Source: Sipunculus nudus
Lineage: Eukaryota > Annelida > Sipuncula > Golfingiida > Sipunculidae
Reading direction: 5' to 3'
NCBI GenBank assembly: GCA_026874595.1
Contig: CM049309.1
Location: 92,276,723-92,340,722, forward strand
Length of the DNA: 64,000 nt
Each line of letters begins with the position of its first letter. Positions within the stretch are counted from its first letter, which is position 1. The position numbers and the translations under genes were made by a program. The notes below the pieces were generated by a model, which worked only from the letters and a program-made list of their open reading frames with translations, did no database searches and was not told where the DNA came from. Of the stretch, positions 5,636-63,163 are shown piece by piece.

Positions 5636-5753
5636 CAGAAAGTCATCTGGCTGTATACCAAACAGTTCCCTGAAGTACCGGAAAGCTATGGGTGCATAAG
5701 TTTTGAATCGGAAGTCACTGTAATGGTGAGCAGGCGTGAGGTTGCTGCCTTCA
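5636..5753 (-). CDS. PIP5K1: PIP5K1 exon, start of kinase fold ([10 protein letters not shown] block)
   Basis: A 118-nt exon. Its first base completes a serine codon begun in the preceding exon (AG + T), then 39 full codons read [39 protein letters not shown]. This block is nearly identical to the N-terminal lobe of animal type I PIP kinases, where human PIP5K1A has [14 protein letters not shown] and FRELFGIRPDDYL. The acceptor reads ttttacag and the donor gtgagtga. The exon ends in phase 0, as expected before the CNEPLIEL exon. The ATG that can be read upstream in this frame lies in intron and is not a start. The exon is constant: either 131-nt alternative exon upstream supplies the AG that completes its first serine. 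Identification rests on motif recognition and is very secure. Confidence 0.95.
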
Positions 5754-8700: not shown

Positions 8701-11428
8701 ACAAGTATTAAATAAATGTGTGTGTCTTATTCTCCATTTTAAATAATGTGTGTATTAAAGAGTACTGTTACCTGTGGCAACAGGAAGACTATTTTGGAAA
8801 ATGATAATGTAATCAAATGGCATGATATGTAGACGTAAGTGATACTCTTATGAAACCAATTGTCTTGAAAGTTGAAACAGTATAGATATCTGCAATGTAA
8901 TTTGTTTTGAATTAACAAGATGTATTTATAACTCCAGAGAGCAGGCAAAATAATGTAAAACTGATAATATATTAAAATCTAAGTCATAAATATCATAGTA
9001 ATCATGCTTATGAAATTTTTAAGTCACAGTACTTTTTAATTTTTTCTGTTAGTTTTCTAGTAATTCAAACAAACATAATAATTGTTAGGAAGTCCAGAAT
9101 CAATAAGGTATGATGATATACAATCAACAAAACTCACAATACTGGGGCATCTATACCAAAAAGGAATGACAACTGATATATCTGGCTAACACTTGTGTTT
9201 TAGATATGCTCATATGACCATTTCTTCCTTTTTTTTCATGATACCAAAGAGGAAAATCAGGTCAGATTTACCTTATTTCTCTCAACTGTACAATGCCAAA
9301 ACCGACAGCAGTGAGGAGGCTACTTGAACCACCAAAATAGTCGCTTTTGTCACAAATGAAGTTCCAAAAACGGTTCTAAATTTATACAACAGAAGTGAAG
9401 ATACTGGTTTTCATGGCTTTTGAAATATTTACTTTGAAGTAAGTCCACAGAGCTCCAGCTGCACTGCAAGAGGCTGCCCTCTTCGATTTAGACACAAAGA
9501 AGAAAGTTTTATGGTGAAACAAGTTAATACTCACTATGGTGAACACATAAACTGCACATTTCAGCAAGTGCAACTGACCAACAAGAAACTTTGTCATACA
9601 AATATTCATTATATCTTATGGCTTGGTTTTATTTTTTTTCAGAGCAAAGAATATTCTTTCTTGAACATTTACACTGTGAAAAAGAGATAAAAGAACCATC
9701 ATTTTCTGGGTGTGATATCAAATTTGTTATCAGAATGATATCTCTTATTCAAGATTCATTCACAAAAAGGGGTCAGAGTGATCTAATGTTTTGTTAAAAG
9801 GCCTTCTGTTTAAAGGTCATATGAGCAATACAAACAAGACGCATGATGTTTATGCTCCGCATGAACAAATGTCAGCCCAAACAAGCTAAGCAGACCAACA
9901 GCCTTCCATGTATGTATATACACAAGTCAGGTACTTCTGCATAAAAGGATGCAGAGCATTGGCAATGGAATCAATGAAATTACCATGCATGGTATTATGT
10001 ACAGTTTGCATGAGCCAGCTAATTGGGAAAGACCAAGACCGGTTTTGGACACATGATGTGTAGCTATATCTGTGACATATAAGACGGTTGACAAATGGCC
10101 AACATTATGTCATGACATTCCTCCCACTGGCAGTGTACACCATGACCCTTCGCCCTGAGTTAGCGCTGACACAAGCCTAGCAACATCAACCAAAATCAAT
10201 ACCAATGGCCTGCCACCTGGATATATGGACTTAAATGCTACCTCTGGAAAAATTTCTGTACAAGTGAAGCACATTAATGGTTCAGAAAACTCACCATTAA
10301 GATTTTTTCCACCAATGGGTGGATGGATGTATATTTAGGGCCTTGAACAGATCCTTCCCCTGTTGTTTCAGTGGCTGTGAATTTCTCCCCCGTGTATTAC
10401 AGTGGAGTGCGAGTCAACATGTGGTACTATAAATGAGCCCCAGTTGTAGCATATAAAATAGGAAATGTCCCAACAGTACCAAAGACCAACAGTAAATTCA
10501 AAATATAATCTGATATCAGACGATGCTCATATACTTCATGAGGCTTGAATCCAAAACATTGTTTTGTTAAAGTCTCTTTTCTTACAAACATAAGACTTTC
10601 AATGACTATAGCTTATAATTTATTCAAAGCTGGAATGAAAATCTTATATCTTGATTCAACTTCAGAAGAACTCCAAATATCTCTCACATGATGTTAGGTT
10701 TTGTGCCAGAGGCACTGTAATAATTTGAAGTTCTCTCTTGTGGTCAATTGTATATTTGCACTTATGCTATGTCTATTCCCTATAGCCAGGTTAGGTAGTC
10801 AATCAAAAATGCCAGCTGAGAACAAGTTAAAATTAATATGTTGCAGCTTTCTTGTTTGGAAAAAGTATTCAGTGGTTAATCACAAAGCATGCCTGGATAA
10901 AGGACATGATTATTGCATTAACCATCACTTATTGACATCACTCTTGAATTTTCCATTGAACAAACAAAAGAAAGCCTGATGCAAAAGTAAGAAACCACAA
11001 CATAAACACAACATTCCAGGTGTCAGAAAAACCTTGCCCAAAGTCTCTACTGACCCAAAATCTATGACTACATCATCTACTCATGCTAAATTATTAATTC
11101 ATGCAATGTTAACACCATTCCATGTAATGGAATCATCACACAAAAACTAATAGTTAGAAAAAAAACAGGGGGTGAGGAAACACAGCATGCAGATGACCTG
11201 AAACAAATTACCAATGTACACATGGCCAATCAGCCAAGCAGGTGGCCACTGAAGAAGCAGTACAACTCATTGTCAAAATGTGAATTTCAACAAGATGGCC
11301 AAGTGAAAGGAGAGCAATAAACAAAGTGCACAGTTAACAAACTACATGAAGGGTAAATATACAAAAGCCTGGCTCTCGCTGATATACATATGGCACATAC
11401 ACAAGCGTTAGCCAGATCCGAGTCTTAC
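5754..11428. other. PIP5K1 intron between constant exon and alternative exons
   Basis: About 5.7 kb of mainly unique AT-rich DNA. Apart from the exon-like cluster at 6254-6742 I see no gene, RNA or mobile-element signature. Confidence 0.6.
6254..6742 (-). other. cluster of exon-like open frames in PIP5K1 intron
   Basis: Two segments have exon-like borders. 6584-6742 (159 nt, 53 codons) is open from an acceptor-like cag and ends at GAG|gtcagt; it includes NFVFLEEMFGQRLALAIDQR and looks coding in composition. 6254-6356 (103 nt, 34 codons plus 1) has an excellent acceptor (cattttgtccag) and donor (GGTG|gtaagt). The frame between them is also open from about 6430 to 6541. None is in phase with the PIP5K1 junction here, where use would bring an early stop. 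They could be remains of a mobile element, a nested gene, or poison exons. I do not recognise the protein. Confidence 0.25.
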
Positions 11429-11559
11429 CTTGGGAAAAATACGGTTTCAACTATGGTAAAATCTTGCAAGAGCAAGTCACGTTTGGGTTTTGTAGTTAGG
11501 CTTGTAATGCTCTGCCCAATACCCAACTGTATTGCAGCCATAAGCTCGGAGGTAGGTTT
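11429..11559 (-). CDS. PIP5K1: PIP5K1 alternative exon A (ITSLTTKPKRD version)
   Basis: A 131-nt exon, 43 codons plus 2 nt, beginning [17 protein letters not shown], continuing [17 protein letters not shown], and ending TIVETVFFP with AG left over for the next exon's serine. It matches the segment of human PIP5K1A that reads AIQLGI...SLSTKPERDVLMQDF...FFPSEGSN. Acceptor ctctag follows a long pyrimidine tract; donor is AAG|gtaaga. It is the downstream member, in transcript order, of a tandem exon pair, and aligns with exon B without gaps. It differs from B at 10 of 43 residues, notably ITS for VGG, TT for SS, K for E before RD, and FF for VF near the end. The serial order, equal length and 79-nt spacing argue that A and B are alternatives. 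The frame is fully open, so it is not an obvious pseudo-exon. Confidence 0.9.
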
Positions 11560-11638
11560 CTAGAGGAACAAGGACAAAAGAGAAAACAACATATAATTCT
11601 TCCATGTTTATGCATCTGTGAAATGAAGACACCCTTAC
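11560..11638 (-). other. 79-nt intron between exons B and A
   Basis: From gtaagggtgt (donor of B) to tccttgttcctctag (acceptor of A). It holds a pyrimidine-rich tract of roughly 30 nt. A branch point upstream of that tract would sit only about 40-50 nt from the donor, which can sterically block B-to-A splicing. Confidence 0.8.
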
Positions 11639-11769
11639 CTGGGAAATACCACGCTGTCCACAACAGTAAAATCTTGCAGGAGTAGGTCACGTTCAGGTTT
11701 TGACGATAAGCCACCTACACTTTGGCCTATACCCAACTGAATGGCTGCCATAAGTTCCGAAGTGGGTTT
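11639..11769 (-). CDS. PIP5K1: PIP5K1 alternative exon B ([11 protein letters not shown] version)
   Basis: A 131-nt exon, 43 codons plus 2 nt, beginning [17 protein letters not shown], continuing [17 protein letters not shown], and ending TVVDSVVFP plus AG. It enters in phase 0, directly after the TYKK codons of exon 27162-27305, and leaves in phase 2. Acceptor is tttcctag and donor CCCAG|gtaaggg. The [11 protein letters not shown] part is closer to vertebrate PIP5K1 (VGSLSTKPERD) than exon A is, whereas the end of exon A (VFFPS) is closer to the vertebrate IFFPS. Exons A and B together replace a single exon of the human gene. Use of both would add 131 nt and shift the frame before the kinase core. 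Confidence 0.92.
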
Positions 11770-12332
11770 CTAGGAAATAAACATACATTGGAAAGGGAAG
11801 TTACCTTTAGAAATCAGTTGGTATGTGCGGGTTTCCATGCCACTGGGGTGACATACATGCATGCTATAATATGGCACCAGCACCGGGCTTCTTCTAGATA
11901 CTGTCACTCACATTGTGTGGCCAAATAAAACAGTGTTCATCTTCTGCTGGGTTTAACTATGTAAACAACATGACAGATGCCAAATTGTATGATACAAGCA
12001 CAGTCCCAGGGAATGTATACCAAAGAACATAATGTATACCATATATGTATACCATAAACAGAATAATTAAGGTTCTAGGGGACATTTATATACAGAGCAT
12101 TCATCTGAAAAAAATAGGCAGTGTACATACATGCATATGGTATAGCATCTTAAATCTAATTAATGCCTAGGCCAGAAATACCTGTATTTTACATAATCAT
12201 TATTTAACGATGTGATCAATTTGTTAGGTGTAAATTGTGACTATAAACAGCCTAACAGAAGCAAAACATTACATATCATAATTTACTTTTTGGTTATTTC
12301 AAATTCTGCAAAATAATAATTACATTCAGAAA
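11770..12332. other. unique intron sequence
   Basis: Contains a short run of ATGTATACC repeats near 12013-12056. No gene is supported. Confidence 0.5.
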
Positions 12333-27161: not shown

Positions 27162-27305
27162 CTTTTTATATGTAACTTGGCCCTCATTGTCGACACGTCT
27201 ATGCCCAATCTTGCGGTCCCGTAGTGTGCTTGATCGTTCCCCTCGGAGAGTGCTGGATCTGGACCCGGATGTTTTACTACCAAAGCTTGTCCCTGGAGTT
27301 GTGAC
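27162..27305 (-). CDS. PIP5K1: PIP5K1 exon with KIGHRRVD...TYKK signature
   Basis: A 144-nt exon of exactly 48 codons, phase 0 at both ends. It reads VTTPGTSFGSKTSGSRSSTL, then RGERSSTLRDRKIGHRRVD and NEGQVTYKK. KIGHR.VD...TYKK is the conserved pre-kinase motif of type I PIP kinases (human: KKIGHRSVDSSGETTYKK). The first 30 residues are rich in Ser, Thr and Arg and look disordered, as in other family members. Acceptor is cttgcag and donor AAAAAG|gtaaaaac, which is usable. The next exon begins at a lysine (KPTSEL), matching the family alignment. The overlapping + strand frame across this exon is a shadow. Confidence 0.95.
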
Positions 27306-55693: not shown

Positions 55694-56580
55694 AGTCAGG
55701 TGTCGGACATTATGAATCTGTGGTTCCTGAAATAGGTGTGAAAGAATCTGTAATAGAAATGTGTAGCACATCCTGAATTTGTGGGTCCTGAAATAGGTGA
55801 GAAAGGATCTGTTATAGAAACGTGTAGGACATCGTGAATCTGTGGGTCCTGAAATAGGTGTGAAAGGATCTGTTATAGAAATGTGTAGGACATCATGAAT
55901 TTGTGGGTCCTGAAATAGGTGTGAAAGGATCTGTTATAGAAACGTGTAGGACATCGTGAATTTGTGGGTCCTGAAATAGGTGTGAAAGGATCTGTTATAG
56001 AAACGTGTAGGACATCGTGAATCTGTGGGTCCTGAAATAGGTGTGAAAGGATCTGTTATAGAAACGTGTAGGACATCGTGAATTTGTGGGTCCTGAAATA
56101 GGTGTGAAAGGATCTGTTATAGAAACGTGTAGGACATCGTGAATTTGTGGGTCTTGAAATAGGTGTGAAAGGATCTGTTATAGAAACATGTAGGACATCG
56201 TGAATCTGTGGGTCCTGAAATAGGTGTGAAAGGATCTGTTACAGAAACGTGTAGGACATTGTGAATCTGTGGGTCCTGAAATAGGTGTGAAAGGATCTGT
56301 TATAGAAATGTGTAGGACATCGTGAATTTGTGGGTCCTGAAATAGGTGTGAAAGGATCTGTTATAGAAACGTGTAGGACATCATGAATTTGTGGGTCCTG
56401 AAATAGGTGTGAAAGGATCTGTTATAGAAACGTGTAGGACATTGTGAATTTGTGGGTCCTGAAATAGGTGTGAAAGGATCTGTTATAGAAATGTGTAGGA
56501 CATCATGAATTTGTGGGTCCTGAAATAGGTGTGAAAGGATCTGTTATAGAAACATGCAGGACATCATGAATTTGTGGGTC
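55694..56580 (+). repeat. 61-bp minisatellite, about 14 units
   Basis: Period exactly 61 bp. Consensus features are GTGTGAAAGGATCTGTTATA, GAAACGTGTAGGACATCGTG and AATTTGTGGGTCCTGAAATAG. Units are more than 90% identical by eye, with recurrent A/G, C/T variants. The first unit is the most diverged. Confidence 0.95.
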
Positions 56581-58471
56581 CTGTAGTAGGTGTGTCCGTG
56601 TCTGTTATAGACTGGTGAAGGACATCATGAATCTGCAGGTCCTGTATGACCATGTCTGTAATTAGCAGGTGTAAAATATCATGAACCTGTGGGTCCAGTA
56701 AAAGGTGACCATGTCTGTAATTAGCAGGTGTAGGATATCATGAAGCTGTGGGTCCTGTAATAAGTGACCATGTCTGTAATTAGCCGGTGTAGGATATCAT
56801 GAACCTGTGGGTCCTGTAAAAGGTGACCATGTCTGTAATTAGCAGGTGTAGGATATCATGAACCTGTAGGTCCACAAAAAGGTGACCATGTCTGTAATTA
56901 GCAGGTGTAGGATATCATAAATCTGTAGGTCCTGTATTAGGTGACCATGTCTGTAATTAGCAGGTGTAGGATATCATGAACCTGTGGATCCTGTGATAAG
57001 TGACCATGTCTGTATTTAGCAGGTGTAGAACATCATGAATCTGTGGGTCCTGTAATAAGTTACCATGTCTGTAATTAGCAGGTGTAGGATATCATGAAGC
57101 TGTGGGTCCAGTAAAAGGTGACCATGTCTGTAATTAGCAGGTGTAGGATATCATGAAGCTGTGGGTCCTGTAATAAGTGACCATGTCTGTAATTAGCCGG
57201 TGTAGGATATCATGAACCTGTGGGTCCTGTAAAAGGTGACCATGTCTGTAATTAGCAGGTGTAGGATATCATGAACCTGTAGGTCCACAAAAAGGTGACC
57301 ATGTCTGAAATTAGCAGGTGTAGGATATCATAAATCTGTGGGTCCTGTAATAGGTGTGACCATGTCTGTAATTAGCAGGTGTAGGATATCATGAACCTGT
57401 GGATCCTGTGATAAGTGACCATGTCTGTATTTAGCAGGTGTAGAACATCATGAATCTGTGGGTCCTGAAATAGGTGTGAAAGGATCTGTTATAGAAATGT
57501 GTAGGACATCATGAATTTGTGGGTCCTGAAATAGGTGTGAAAGGATCTGTTATAGAAACATGCAGGACATCATGAATTTGTGGGTCCTGTAGTAGGTGTG
57601 TCCGTGTCTGTTATAGACTGGTGAAGGACATCATGAATCTGCAGGTCCTGTATGACCATGTCTGTAATTAGCAGGTGTAAAATTTCATGAACCTGTGGGT
57701 CCAGTAAAAGGTGACCATGTCTGTAATTAGCAGGTGTAGGATATCATGAAGCTGTGGGTCCTGTAATAAGTGACCATGTCTGTAATTAGCCGGTGTAGGA
57801 TATCATGAACCTGTGGGTCCTGTAAAAGGTGACCATGTCTGTAATTAGCAGGTGTAGGATATCATGACCCTGTAGGTCCACAAAAAGGTGACCATGTCTG
57901 TAATTAGCAGGTGTAGGATGTCATAAATCTGTGGGTCCTGTATTAGGTGACCATGTCTGTAATTAGCAGGTGTAGGATATCATGAACCTGTGGATCCTGT
58001 GATAAGTGACCATGTCTGTATTTAGCAGGTGTAGAACATCATGAATCTGTGGGTCCTGTAATAAGTTACCATGTCTGTAATTAGCAGGTGTAGGATATCA
58101 TGAAGCTGTGGGTCCAGTAAAAGGTGACCATGTCTGTAATTAGCAGGTGTAGGATATCATGAAGCTGTGGGTCCTGTAATAAGTGACCATGTCTGTAATT
58201 AGCCGGTGTAGGATATCATGAACCTGTGGGTCCTGTAAAAGGTGACCGTGTCTGTAATTAGCAGGTGTAGGATATCATGAACCTGTAGGTCCACAAAAAG
58301 GTGACCATGTCTGAAATTAGCAGGTGTAGGATATCATAAATCTGTGGGTCCTGTAATAGGTGTGACCATGTCTGTAATTAGCAGGTGTAGGATATCATGA
58401 ACCTGTGGATCCTGTGATAAGTGACCATGTCTGTATTTAGCAGGTGTAGGACATCATGAATCTGTGGGTCC
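56460..58471 (+). repeat. two copies of a 1006-bp block within the minisatellite
   Basis: 56460-57465 and 57466-58471 align at a constant offset of 1006 bp (for example the rare gtgtccgtgtctgttatagactgg at 56591 and 57597, and ttaccatg at 57060 and 58066). Divergence starts where the second copy runs on into the 59-bp array. Confidence 0.88.
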
Positions 58472-61400
58472 TGTAATAAGTGACCATGTCTGTAATTAGC
58501 AGGTGTAGGATATCATTAACCTGTGGGTCCAGTGAAAGGTGACCATGTCTGTAATTAGCAGGTGTAGGATATCATGAACCTGTGGATCCTGTGATAAGTG
58601 ACCATGTCTGTAGTTACCAGGTGTAGGACATCATGAATCTGTGGGTCCTGTAATAGGTGTGACCATGTCTGTAATTAGCAGGTGTAGGATATCATTAACC
58701 TGTGGGTCCAGTGAAAGGTGACCATGTCTGTAATTAGCAGGTGTAGGATATCATGAACCTGTCAGTCTGTGGGTCCTGTAAAAGGTGACCATGTCTGTAA
58801 TTAGCAGGTGTAGGATATCATGAACCTGTAGGTCCACAAAAAGGTGACCATGTTTGTAATTAGCAGGTGTAGGATATCATGAATCTGCGGGTCCTGTATA
58901 AGGTGTCCATGTCTGTAATAAGCAGGTGTGGAAATCAAGAACTTGTGGGTCCAGTAAAAGGTGACCATGTCTGTAATTAGCAGGTGCAGGACATCATGAG
59001 TCTGTTGGTCCTGTAAGGGGTGACCATGTTTGTAATTAGCAGGTGTAGGATATTATGAATCTGTCTGTCCTGTATTAGGTGACCATGTCTGTAATTAGCA
59101 GGTGTAGGATATCATGAACCTGTAGGTCCTGTATTAGGTGACCATGTCTGTAATTAGCAGGTGTAGGACATCATGAATCTGTGGGTCCTGTAATAAGTGA
59201 CCATGTCTGTAATTAGCCGGTGTAGGATATCATGAACCTGTAGGTCCAGTAAAAGGTGACCATGTTTGTAATTAGCAGGTGTAGGATATCATGAATCTGT
59301 CGGTCCTGTATTAGGTGACCATGTCTGTAATTAGCAGGTGTAGGATATCATGAACCTGTAGGTCCTGTATTAGTTGACCATGTCTGTAATTAGCAGGTGT
59401 AGGACATCATGAATCTGTGGGTCCTGTAATAAGTGACCATGTCTGTAATTAGCCGGTGTAGGATATCATGAACCTGTGGATCCTGTGATAAGTGACCATG
59501 TCTGTATTTAGCAGGTGTAGGACATCATGAATCTGTGGGTCCTGTAATAAGTGACCATGTCTGTAATTAGCAGGTGTAGGATATCATTAACCTGTGGGTC
59601 CAGTGAAAGGTGACCATGTCTGTAATTAGCAGGTGTAGGATATCATGAACCTGTCAGTCTGTGGGTCCTGTAAAAGGAGACCATGTCTGTAATTAGCAGG
59701 TGTAGGATATCATGAACCTGTAGGTCCACAAAAAGGTGACCATGTTTGTAATTAGCAGGTGTAGGATATCATGAATCTGCGGGTCTTGTATTAGGTGACC
59801 ATGTCTGTAATAAGCAGGTGTGGAAATCAAGAACTTGTGGGTCCAGTAAAAGGTGACCATGTCTGTAATTAGCAGGTGTAGGACATCATGAGTCTGTTGG
59901 TCCTGTACGGGGTGACCATGTTTGTAATTAGCAGGTGTAGGATATCATGAATCTGTCGGTCCTGTATTAGGTGACCATGTCTGTAATTAGCAGGTGTAGG
60001 ATATCATGAACCTGTAGGTCCTGTATTAGGTGACCATGTCTGTAATTAGCAGGTGTAGGACATCATGAATCTGTGGGTCCTGTAATAAGTGACCATGTCT
60101 GTAATTAGCCGGTGTAGGATATCATGAACCTGTAGGTCCAGTAAAAGATGACCATGTTTGTAATTAGCAGGTGTAGGATATCATGAATCTGTCGGTCCTG
60201 TATTAGGTGACCATTTCTGTAATTAGCAGGTGTAGGATATCATGAACCTGTAGGTCCTGTATTAGGTGACCATGTCTGTAATTAGCAGGTGTAGGACATC
60301 ATGAATCTGTGGGTCCTGTAATAAGTGACCATGTCTGTAATTAGCCGGTGTAGGATATCATGAACCTGTAGGTCCACAAAAAGGTGACCATGTTTGTAAT
60401 TAGCAGGTGTAGGATATCATGAATCTGTCGGTCCTGTATTAGGTGACCATGTCTGTAATTACCAGGTGTAGGACATCATGAATCTTTGGGTCCTGTAATA
60501 GGTGTGACCATGTCTGTAATTAGCAGGTGTAGGATATCATTAACCTGTGGGTCCAGTGAAAGGTGACCATGTCTGTAATTAGCAGGTGTAGGATATCATG
60601 AACCTGTCAGTCTGTGGGTCCTGTAAAAGGTGACCATGTCTGTAATTAGCAGGTGTAGGATATCATGAACCTGTCAGTCTGTGGGTCCTGTAAAAGGTGA
60701 CCATGTCTGTAATTAGCAGGTGTAGGATATCATGAACCTGTAGGTCCACAAAAAGGTGACCATGTTTGTAATTAGCAGGTGTAGGATATCATGAATCTGC
60801 GGGTCCTGTATTAGGTGACCATGTCTGTAATAAGCAGGTGTGGAAATCAAGAACTTGTGGGTCCAGTAAAAGGTGACCATGTCTGTAATTAGAAGGTGTA
60901 GGACATCATGAGTCTGTTGGTCCTGTAAGGGGTGACCATGTTTGTAATTAGCCGGTGTAGGATATCATGAACCTGTAGGTCCACAAAAAGGTGACCATGT
61001 CTGTAATTAGCAGGTGTAGGATATCATGAATCTGTAGGTCCACAAAAAGGTGACCATGTCTGTAATTAGCCGGTGTAGGATATCATGAACCTGTAGGTCC
61101 ACAAAAAGGTGACCATGTCTGTAATTAGCAGGTGTAGGATATCATGAATCTGTCGGTCCTGTATTAGGTGACCATGTCTGAAATTAGCAGGTGTAGGACA
61201 TCATGAACCTGTAGGTCCACAAAAAGGTGACCATGTCTGTAATTAGCAGGTGTAGGATATCATAAATCTGTGGGTCCTGTATTAGGTGACCATGTCTGTA
61301 ATTAGCAGGTGTAGGATATCATAAATATGCGGGTCCTGTAATAAGTGACCATGTCTGTAATTAGCCGGTGTAGGATATCATGAACCTGTAGGTCCAGTAA

Positions 61401-61830
61401 AAGGTGACCATGTTTGTAATTAGCAGGTGTAGGACATCATGAATCTGTCGGTCCTGTATTAGGTGACCATGTCTGTAATTAGCAGGTGTAGGACATCATG
61501 AATCTGTGGGTCCTGTAATAAGTGACCATGTCTGTAATTAGCCGGTGTAGGATATCATGAACCTGTAGGTCCACAATAAGGTGACCATGTTTGTAATTAG
61601 CAGGTGTAGGATATCATGAATCTGTCGAACCTGTATTAGGTGACCATGTCTGTAATTAGCAGGTGTAGGATATCATAAATCTGCGGGTCCTGTAATAAGT
61701 GACCATGTCTGTAATTAGACGGTGTAGGATATCATGAACCTGTAGGTCCAGTAAAAGGTGACCATGTCTGTAATTAGCAGGTGTAGAACATCATGAATCT
61801 GTGGGTCCTGTAACAAGTGTCAGTGTCTGT
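56581..61830 (+). repeat. 59-bp minisatellite with higher-order structure, roughly 85-90 units
   Basis: Main period 59 bp (some units 61 or more). Consensus features are GTGACCATGTCTGTAATTAG, CAGGTGTAGGATATCATGAA and CCTGTGGGTCCTGTAAAAG. Unit variants (aggtccacaaaaag, ggtcctgtattag, ggatcctgtgataag, gtgtggaaatcaag) recur in a fixed order, showing multi-unit duplications. 61-bp-type units reappear at 57466-57590. No sustained frame. Confidence 0.95.
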
Positions 61831-62371
61831 AAAAGTGAGGACATTGAGAATCTTCCAATTGTACCAACTCAAGTCTTGGTAAAAGAGAGAAAATAATAAC
61901 AGGTATAAAGTTAGTTAATTCAAAATATGGAGACATTCTTTGTGCAGAGTATGTAAAGATGGATGTTTTGTAGGCCAGTTGTGATACCATCTAGATGATT
62001 TGACAAAATTTTAGGTTCATTTTCTTATTCTTCCTCAGTCAGTCTTTTTGACAGATTAAACAAATGATAACCATTTCATTGCCACCAAAGAGTTATTATT
62101 CACTGTAGATGAATTATAACAAGTGGCATAATGTCAATGCCTACGCTCTGAACACAGCGCATGACCTCCTGGTGACTTTCCACTCACAAGCTGTGAGTAG
62201 GATTCTTCAGGTTTGGCAAGGTGCCAAACACCAAGGCAGTTTGCGCTAGAAAAAGTAAAATCTGATTGGCTCTCCATTTACACAAATCTGCAGAACTGGT
62301 AGAAGAAATCTAATTGGCTAAGCATGTAAACAACCCCTGGCAAGCTCGTGTAGCATGGCAAGAAAGGAAAT
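61831..62371. other. unique DNA after the minisatellite
   Basis: AT-rich, then mixed sequence with two inverted CCAAT motifs near 62264 and 62313. No gene certain. Confidence 0.45.
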
Positions 62372-62992: not shown

Positions 62993-63163
62993 ATGACACT
63001 AGTCAGTATAGAGACAATGTTGAAAGTTGACAATTGCATCGTGTGTATTCAAACTGGGGGTGGAAAAAGTCTGTGCTACCAAGGGCTTTCCACTGCTGTG
63101 CAAAGTGACCCATACCTTGAAGAACAACCGTGGTTTAATGCAGTGGATAGTGTAGCAAATAGT
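62993..63163 (+). pseudogene. RecQ-like helicase fragment with Walker A motif
   Basis: The open frame, counted from the first in-frame ATG at 62993, reads MTLVSIETMLKVDNCIV, CIQTGGGKSLCYQ, GLSTAVQSDPYLEEQPWF and ends about 40 residues after the motif at a TGA near 63161. TGGGKSLCYQ preceded by a hydrophobic strand and an IET.L helix matches motifs 0/I of RecQ-family helicases (for example LPTGGGKSLCYQLPA). After CYQ the expected LPAL is absent and the sequence diverges. No GT donor lies right after the motif. This is therefore either a decayed copy or one exon of a gene whose other exons lie to the right. I did not recognise the DEAH or later motifs within the remaining 800 bases. Confidence 0.4.

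Follow-up and report, generated by a model that had tools for sequence, protein, structure and literature searches.

The closest described counterparts of the exon pair reported here are found in alpha-tropomyosin, alpha-actinin and the OGDH exons 4a and 4b (PMC7969005, in its available text). As in the locus described below, two adjacent homologous exons are separated by a short spacer, a branch point lies less than about 50 nt from the donor of the first exon, and a pyrimidine-rich tract precedes the second. About 50 nt between donor and branch point is the proposed steric limit; the branch points of human OGDH lie at 25 to 41 nt (same source), and the accessible part of PMC5740500 gives 57 human clusters (9%; 629 clusters in the figure legend) with this <50 bp property. 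Two further systems resemble our locus at the level of the protein. In the muscle myosin heavy-chain clusters of molluscs (PMC3912159, partial text), mutually exclusive tandem exons encode variants of one folded enzyme segment, and the tandem exons of FYN (PMC9741552, partial text) substitute the start of the kinase domain, thereby tuning regulation.

The locus that we describe here would place such a pair in a PIP5K type I gene. It differs from the tropomyosin, actinin and OGDH cases in gene and protein role, and in that its branch point is deduced from the positions of adenosines. FYN is a protein tyrosine kinase whose exchanged segment includes the ATP-binding site, whereas the PIP5K segment contains neither K171 nor D299. 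The vertebrate PIP5K1A, PIP5K1B and PIP5K1C likewise offer several PIP5K forms around one catalytic core, yet they do so as separate genes, each with splice variants of its own, while here the choice of exon would lie inside a single gene; invertebrates have been reported to possess one PIP5K homolog (PMC6523245, in the part available). On the evidence set out below, we consider it probable (roughly 0.83) that the two exons, which we call A and B, are ancient tandem-duplicated and mutually exclusive exons of this gene.

The window analysed is a stretch of 64,000 nt (C4:92276723-92340722) within an assembly of 1,426,538,692 bases on 153 contigs, all of which was searched. A muscle-myosin exon from this assembly scores 193 to 190.8 bits against its eight best PDB chains, from squid and scallop, and 190.1 bits against the next, Myosin-6, a very small margin that makes a molluscan origin plausible but supports it weakly. 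The hemocyanin profile PF14830, a molluscan marker, matched neither the assembly nor the controls. The gene lies on the minus strand. Exon A occupies positions 11639 to 11769 and exon B positions 11429 to 11559; both are 131 nt long, enter in phase 0, leave in phase 2, and encode 43 residues plus a split serine codon. Between them lies a spacer of 79 nt (11560 to 11638), which starts with GTAAGG and ends with CTCTAG. The upstream exon (27162 to 27305) ends with RKIGHRRVDNEGQVTYKK at 27162 in phase 0, and the downstream exon (5636 to 5753, 40 protein letters) starts at 5753, completing the split codon as AG|T, that is, serine, whichever of A or B precedes it. Both copies have intact AG and GT sites. 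The initial annotation, which had proposed two 131-nt exons with phases 0 and 2 and matching splice junctions, is thus confirmed to the base.

The same annotation had taken the exons for alternative versions of one 43-residue segment, and comparison of their sequences bears this out. At the DNA level, 94 of the 131 positions are identical and 37 (28%) differ; at the protein level, 33 of 43 residues are identical, with silent differences in 20 codons and residue changes in 10. Used as a tblastn query against the window, the A peptide finds B at E=1.7e-20, followed by a next-best match at E=0.075. Against the whole assembly, it returns two matches at E<=1, namely, itself and B (1.4e-14). No third copy of the exon was found in the window by tblastn, nor in the assembly at E<=1, and the C4 locus is the only place in the assembly where the A/B segment was found. 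Outside the exons, an ungapped alignment of the intron flanks, splice signals included, gave 19/60 identical positions on the acceptor side and 13/40 on the donor side.

That the gene encodes a type I kinase follows from its closer match to PIP5K1A than to PIP4K2B. The partial kinase assembled with exon B (277 residues) gives 1.2e-126 against zebrafish PIP5K1A and 1.3e-39 against PIP4K2B, which upholds the initial assignment to PIP5K1. The exons individually match zebrafish PIP5K1A in the PDB as well, A at 3.7e-11 (27/43 identities) and B at 4e-10 (24/43). All of the kinase residues K171, D299, D84, R287, V291, E129 and R197 (zebrafish PIP5K1A numbering) are present, and more exons of the same gene are located on C4 outside the window. 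A search of the assembly with the PF01504 profile gave 12 matches, on C4 (three), C5 (four), C13 (four) and C16 (one). Two of the C13 exons, the ones that were typed by eye, resemble another PIPK type; the C5 and C16 matches stood outside this typing, and the assembly may contain a divergent second type I PIP5K gene elsewhere. An NCBIfam scan of the kinase returned no family from this library, which is built for bacteria and archaea.

Frame logic constrains how the two exons can be combined. In silico splicing with either exon on its own leaves the kinase frame open across the joined exons, giving one predicted isoform per exon as initially suggested. The companion proposal that using both or neither would break the frame also proved correct: inclusion of both A and B leads to a stop codon within exon B, while skipping of both joins ...AAAAAG to TGAAGG, which reads ...TYKK followed immediately by TGA.

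The degree of divergence between the copies is informative about their history. Silent divergence between A and B amounts to a pS of 0.82, beyond Jukes-Cantor saturation, with 11 of the 15 comparable fourfold sites changed, while dN is 0.13. Because silent sites are saturated, the duplication cannot be dated from them. In our simulations, which started from A or from B with a kappa of 2, copies diverged until they had accumulated as many silent changes as separate A and B; as a simplification, this number was checked at roughly every tenth step. When one copy evolved neutrally, none of 200 runs ended with <=10 residue differences, whether its partner was held at an omega of 0.05 (minimum 25) or of 0 (minimum 24), and 153 of the 200 runs in each set, 306 of 400 together, acquired a stop. 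With both copies constrained, <=10 differences, the number observed being 10, were reached in 141/200 runs at an omega of 0.05 and in 50/200 at 0.1. Since silent sites are saturated yet only 10 residues have changed, an outcome that none of the 400 neutral-copy runs resembled, both copies are very probably old, translated and under selection over a long time, as judged from these substitution patterns.

These numbers speak directly to the idea that either A or B is dead or cryptic. Saturated silent sites combined with just 10 residue changes, the lack of stops and the intact splice sites on both copies all argue against it, and a neutral or dead copy is rejected by the simulation (0/400 runs with <=10 differences, a stop gained in 306/400), so that we regard this explanation as very improbable. 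Still less credible is an assembly artefact, be it collapsed alleles or a false duplication, since a nucleotide divergence of 28% with saturated silent sites would not be expected from the misjoining of haplotypes.

We then turn to the spacer, which the initial annotation considered perhaps too short for splicing of A to B. Numbered from its first base, the spacer has adenosines at +3 and +4 (within the donor), fifteen more at +15 to +47, and one at +78 in the terminal AG. The region from +48 to +77 is a pyrimidine-rich tract, and no adenosine occurs from +48 until that terminal AG. As the usable adenosines are confined to +15 to +47, an adenosine branch point would lie less than 50 nt from the donor of A. 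Our scoring of branch points was a simple four-position check over part of the spacer, and the argument is based on the adenosine positions alone; the steric threshold comes from vertebrates and is applied here to a branch point inferred from those positions.

To put the spacer length into perspective, we compared it with estimated introns between 166 neighboring exon pairs in the genome (29 from myosin, 26 from CCT, 58 from dynein and 53 from kinesin genes, that is, four families and not a census). These had a minimum of 197 nt and a median of 751 nt, none being <=150 nt, so the 79-nt spacer falls below the sampled range, a comparison of lengths and not a test of splicing. The estimates derive from adjacent exon matches with near-contiguous profile positions only; the input comprised every myosin (75), dynein (84) and kinesin (126) match, while 14 of the 63 CCT matches were left out (11 on bacterial-like contigs, and three on C11 and C3 that were long open frames). 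Exons merged into one match can hide short introns, and a check of the dynein and kinesin matches found one such merged match (471 nt of excess). Very short animal introns can be spliced, as reported for a 56-nt human intron (PMC8363638, partial text). Being shorter than all 166 estimated introns and having its branch adenosines at or before +47, the spacer nonetheless fits the initial suggestion.

The same measurements weigh on the possibility that the exons are not strictly exclusive, and that A+B serves as a deliberate poison configuration, lowering kinase output through splicing coupled to nonsense-mediated decay. Consistent with such a scheme, the A+B product stops within exon B, and the donors and acceptors of both exons appear usable. 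However, a spacer shorter than every one of the 166 estimated introns, with branch adenosines no more than 47 nt from the donor, would make A-to-B joining inefficient, and protein-level selection on both copies argues for translation of both. We judge this scheme to be improbable.

More weight, while still on the unlikely side, goes to an explanation in which the exons do exclude each other, but for reasons other than the sterics of the spacer: repressors acting in trans, pairing within the RNA, or removal of faulty products by decay. A precedent exists in the same genome. On C2 (44845000 to 44854400), a muscle myosin heavy-chain gene carries the exon ...QANPVLEAYGNAKT... in four tandem versions, with 580 to 1,064 nt between matches. 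By analogy with the molluscan clusters of PMC3912159, known to us from part of its text, these versions are very probably mutually exclusive without a steric constraint. The set differs from the PIP5K pair in having spacers of hundreds of nucleotides, which are not steric, and in belonging to a motor instead of a lipid kinase. Because its exon versions lie so far apart, this organism very probably possesses non-steric exclusion. At the PIP5K pair itself, such an explanation is countered by a spacer that is exceptionally short and lacks a distant branch adenosine, and by unremarkable folding and flank pairing. That is, local RNA folding around the pair gave a z of +1.7, with 96/100 shuffles folding equally well or better, and where the spacer or the acceptor region of A was tested for pairing with 600-nt flanks, between 18 and 87 of 100 crude shuffles did as well. 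A structure-based mechanism of the Dscam type, with docking and selector pairing, hence finds no support from folding or from pairing with the 600-nt flanks.

Candidate regulatory motifs provide a further, weak point in favor of a non-steric mechanism. The hexamer TGCATG, which we take to be an RBFOX-type motif, occurs upstream of A at 11856 to 11861 on the minus strand, and other copies start at 12135, 11191 and 11105. The 21.4 kb separating the flanking exons contain eight copies, of which four fall within 10901 to 12300, one pair upstream of A and the other downstream of B. This clustering has a P of 0.001, uncorrected for the 11 motifs tried; since TGCATG shares third place among 2,336 hexamers, similar P values are expected by chance. 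Regulation of the pair by RBFOX is for these reasons a weak lead, suggested by motif positions. Under the position rule of vertebrate RBFOX, the layout seen here would favor B.

Taken together, the ancient and constrained divergence, the failure of the frame and the short spacer agree, and they lead us to predict mutually exclusive use of A and B. The initial reading of the exons as mutually exclusive is thus supported as a prediction by divergence, constraint, frame logic and spacer geometry. Mechanistically, U1 on the A donor and U2 on the B branch point would sit too close to each other, and the 79-nt spacer would be poorly removed as a consequence. The upstream exon would join either A or B, and either would join the downstream exon; a leaky product with both exons, or with neither, would contain a premature stop codon and presumably be lost to decay. 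B might be the default exon, having the richer pyrimidine tract (26/30 pyrimidines in the 30 nt before the AG versus 23/30 for A, whose acceptor region at 11770 to 11820 is the poorer of the two). A could then be used where the branch-point and tract region of B is repressed, or RBFOX-type sites around the pair could favor B.

What the exchange would change in the protein can be gauged from zebrafish PIP5K1A, in which the A/B segment corresponds to residues 57 to 99 (the numbering agrees at 17/17 named residues). According to the accessible text of PMC4570271, D84 and L86 of the alpha1-alpha1a loop contact R287 and V291 at the dimer interface, kinase activity depends on dimerization through this loop, S78 and K80 are required for binding of DIX (Dishevelled), and the zebrafish substitution E82A shifts DIX binding by <=20%. 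Similarly, the part of PMC9470164 available to us describes D84R-equivalent interface mutants that impair dimerization of PIP5KB and lower its activity, the activity of human PIP5KA being lower as well.

A and B differ at positions 74, 75, 76, 78 (S/T), 79, 82 (E/K), 92, 94, 95 and 97, sparing the first 17 positions of the segment (chance 0.0028). D84, L86, R287, V291, P186, M190, E129, R197, K80, I133, Y126 and D276 are identical in both isoforms and zebrafish, and zebrafish F189 is tyrosine in both isoforms. Among D84, L86, S78 and K80, only S78 varies between the isoforms: A keeps S78 and E82, while B has threonine and lysine in their place. Overall, the zebrafish residue is retained by A at 74, 75, 78, 82, 92 and 95, by B at 76, 94 and 97, and by neither at 79. 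As A and B each keep different zebrafish residues, neither copy is simply ancestral. If the isoforms differ in function, the likeliest cause is the charge reversal at position 82, which lies two residues from D84; the other substitutions are mostly mild. For DIX binding, E82K may matter little, given the zebrafish E82A result. The catalytic residues K171 and D299 do not reside in the swapped segment. By extension from zebrafish PIP5K1A, exon choice would replace residues 57 to 99 including the dimer/DIX loop, and the isoforms would differ in dimer strength, in Dishevelled coupling or in both, and not in catalytic residues.

PIP5K produces the majority of PI(4,5)P2 at the plasma membrane (PMC9470164, same portion), and a natural isoform pair under long selection would offer a ready-made test of what the dimer loop tunes. 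No earlier report of an A/B exon pair in PIP5K appeared among the papers listed by our literature searches. Two surveys of tandem or mutually exclusive exons in human genes, and PMC3228551, a paper on the prediction of such exons, likewise do not mention PIP5K in their main text. Two papers that do name the gene concern other matters in the text accessible to us: PMC10665256, on PIP5K1C splicing in prostate cancer, deals with an alternate terminator of PIP5K1C, and PMC13401447, on a deep-sea mussel, has PIP5K as a gene name in a legend; neither describes an A/B-type exon pair. Judged from the sequence features assembled here, this is most likely a known kind of exon pair, probably one with sterically enforced exclusion, in a gene for which no earlier report was found.

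A more far-reaching scenario would be an animal with one PIP5K gene, in which an ancient, RBFOX-directed splice switch yields two kinases with different dimerization and different responses to Dishevelled, an arrangement common across molluscs or beyond. We put this forward tentatively, as a scenario that we do not expect to hold in full. If true, cell types would pick by exon how cooperatively PI(4,5)P2 is made, a variety that vertebrates spread over three genes.

Elsewhere in the same PIP5K1 gene, on C4 downstream of the window, we observed a 49-bp minisatellite of 37.1 copies (L002:1962-3775), located in the intron that precedes the exon beginning with CGGKNIRFIVMNNLLP. Each unit joins the 3' splice site of this same intron to roughly the first 30 bases of the PIP5K1 exon that follows. 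A strict pattern counts at least 28 near-identical decoy acceptors ahead of the authentic one, with some further units outside that pattern; the pyrimidine counts of the decoys are similar to that of the real site, and any of the 28, if used, would lead to a stop before the real exon ends. The 25-base core of the unit has 22 exact occurrences in the assembly, all of them in this array. Extra matches to QCGGKNIRF had been considered as a second set of alternative exons in the PIP5K gene, a candidate that we discarded upon recognizing them as this minisatellite of acceptor plus exon start. The decoy array provides a natural test of how a splice acceptor is chosen.

Three observations concern other sequences. 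Open frames of 547 aa that encode a GroEL of bacterial type gave nine equal-scoring matches, on C61 (2.17 Mb), C62, C66, C72, C73, C75, C89 (twice) and C99, and C74 had a partial match. Among the matches listed, the closest relatives, from Omnitrophota, Spirochaetota and Verrucomicrobia, are only ~70% identical; these contigs possibly derive from a symbiont of a little-known lineage. Within the window, positions 55697 to 61832 hold a 6-kb tandem array of about 100 copies of a 59-bp unit, also detected with periods of 118 and 177 bp, which coincides with a GC skew of 0.33 at 56 to 60 kb. Finally, a tblastn match on the plus strand at 63032 to 63154 includes the translation QTGGGKSLCYQ, which we take to resemble a RecQ helicase motif.
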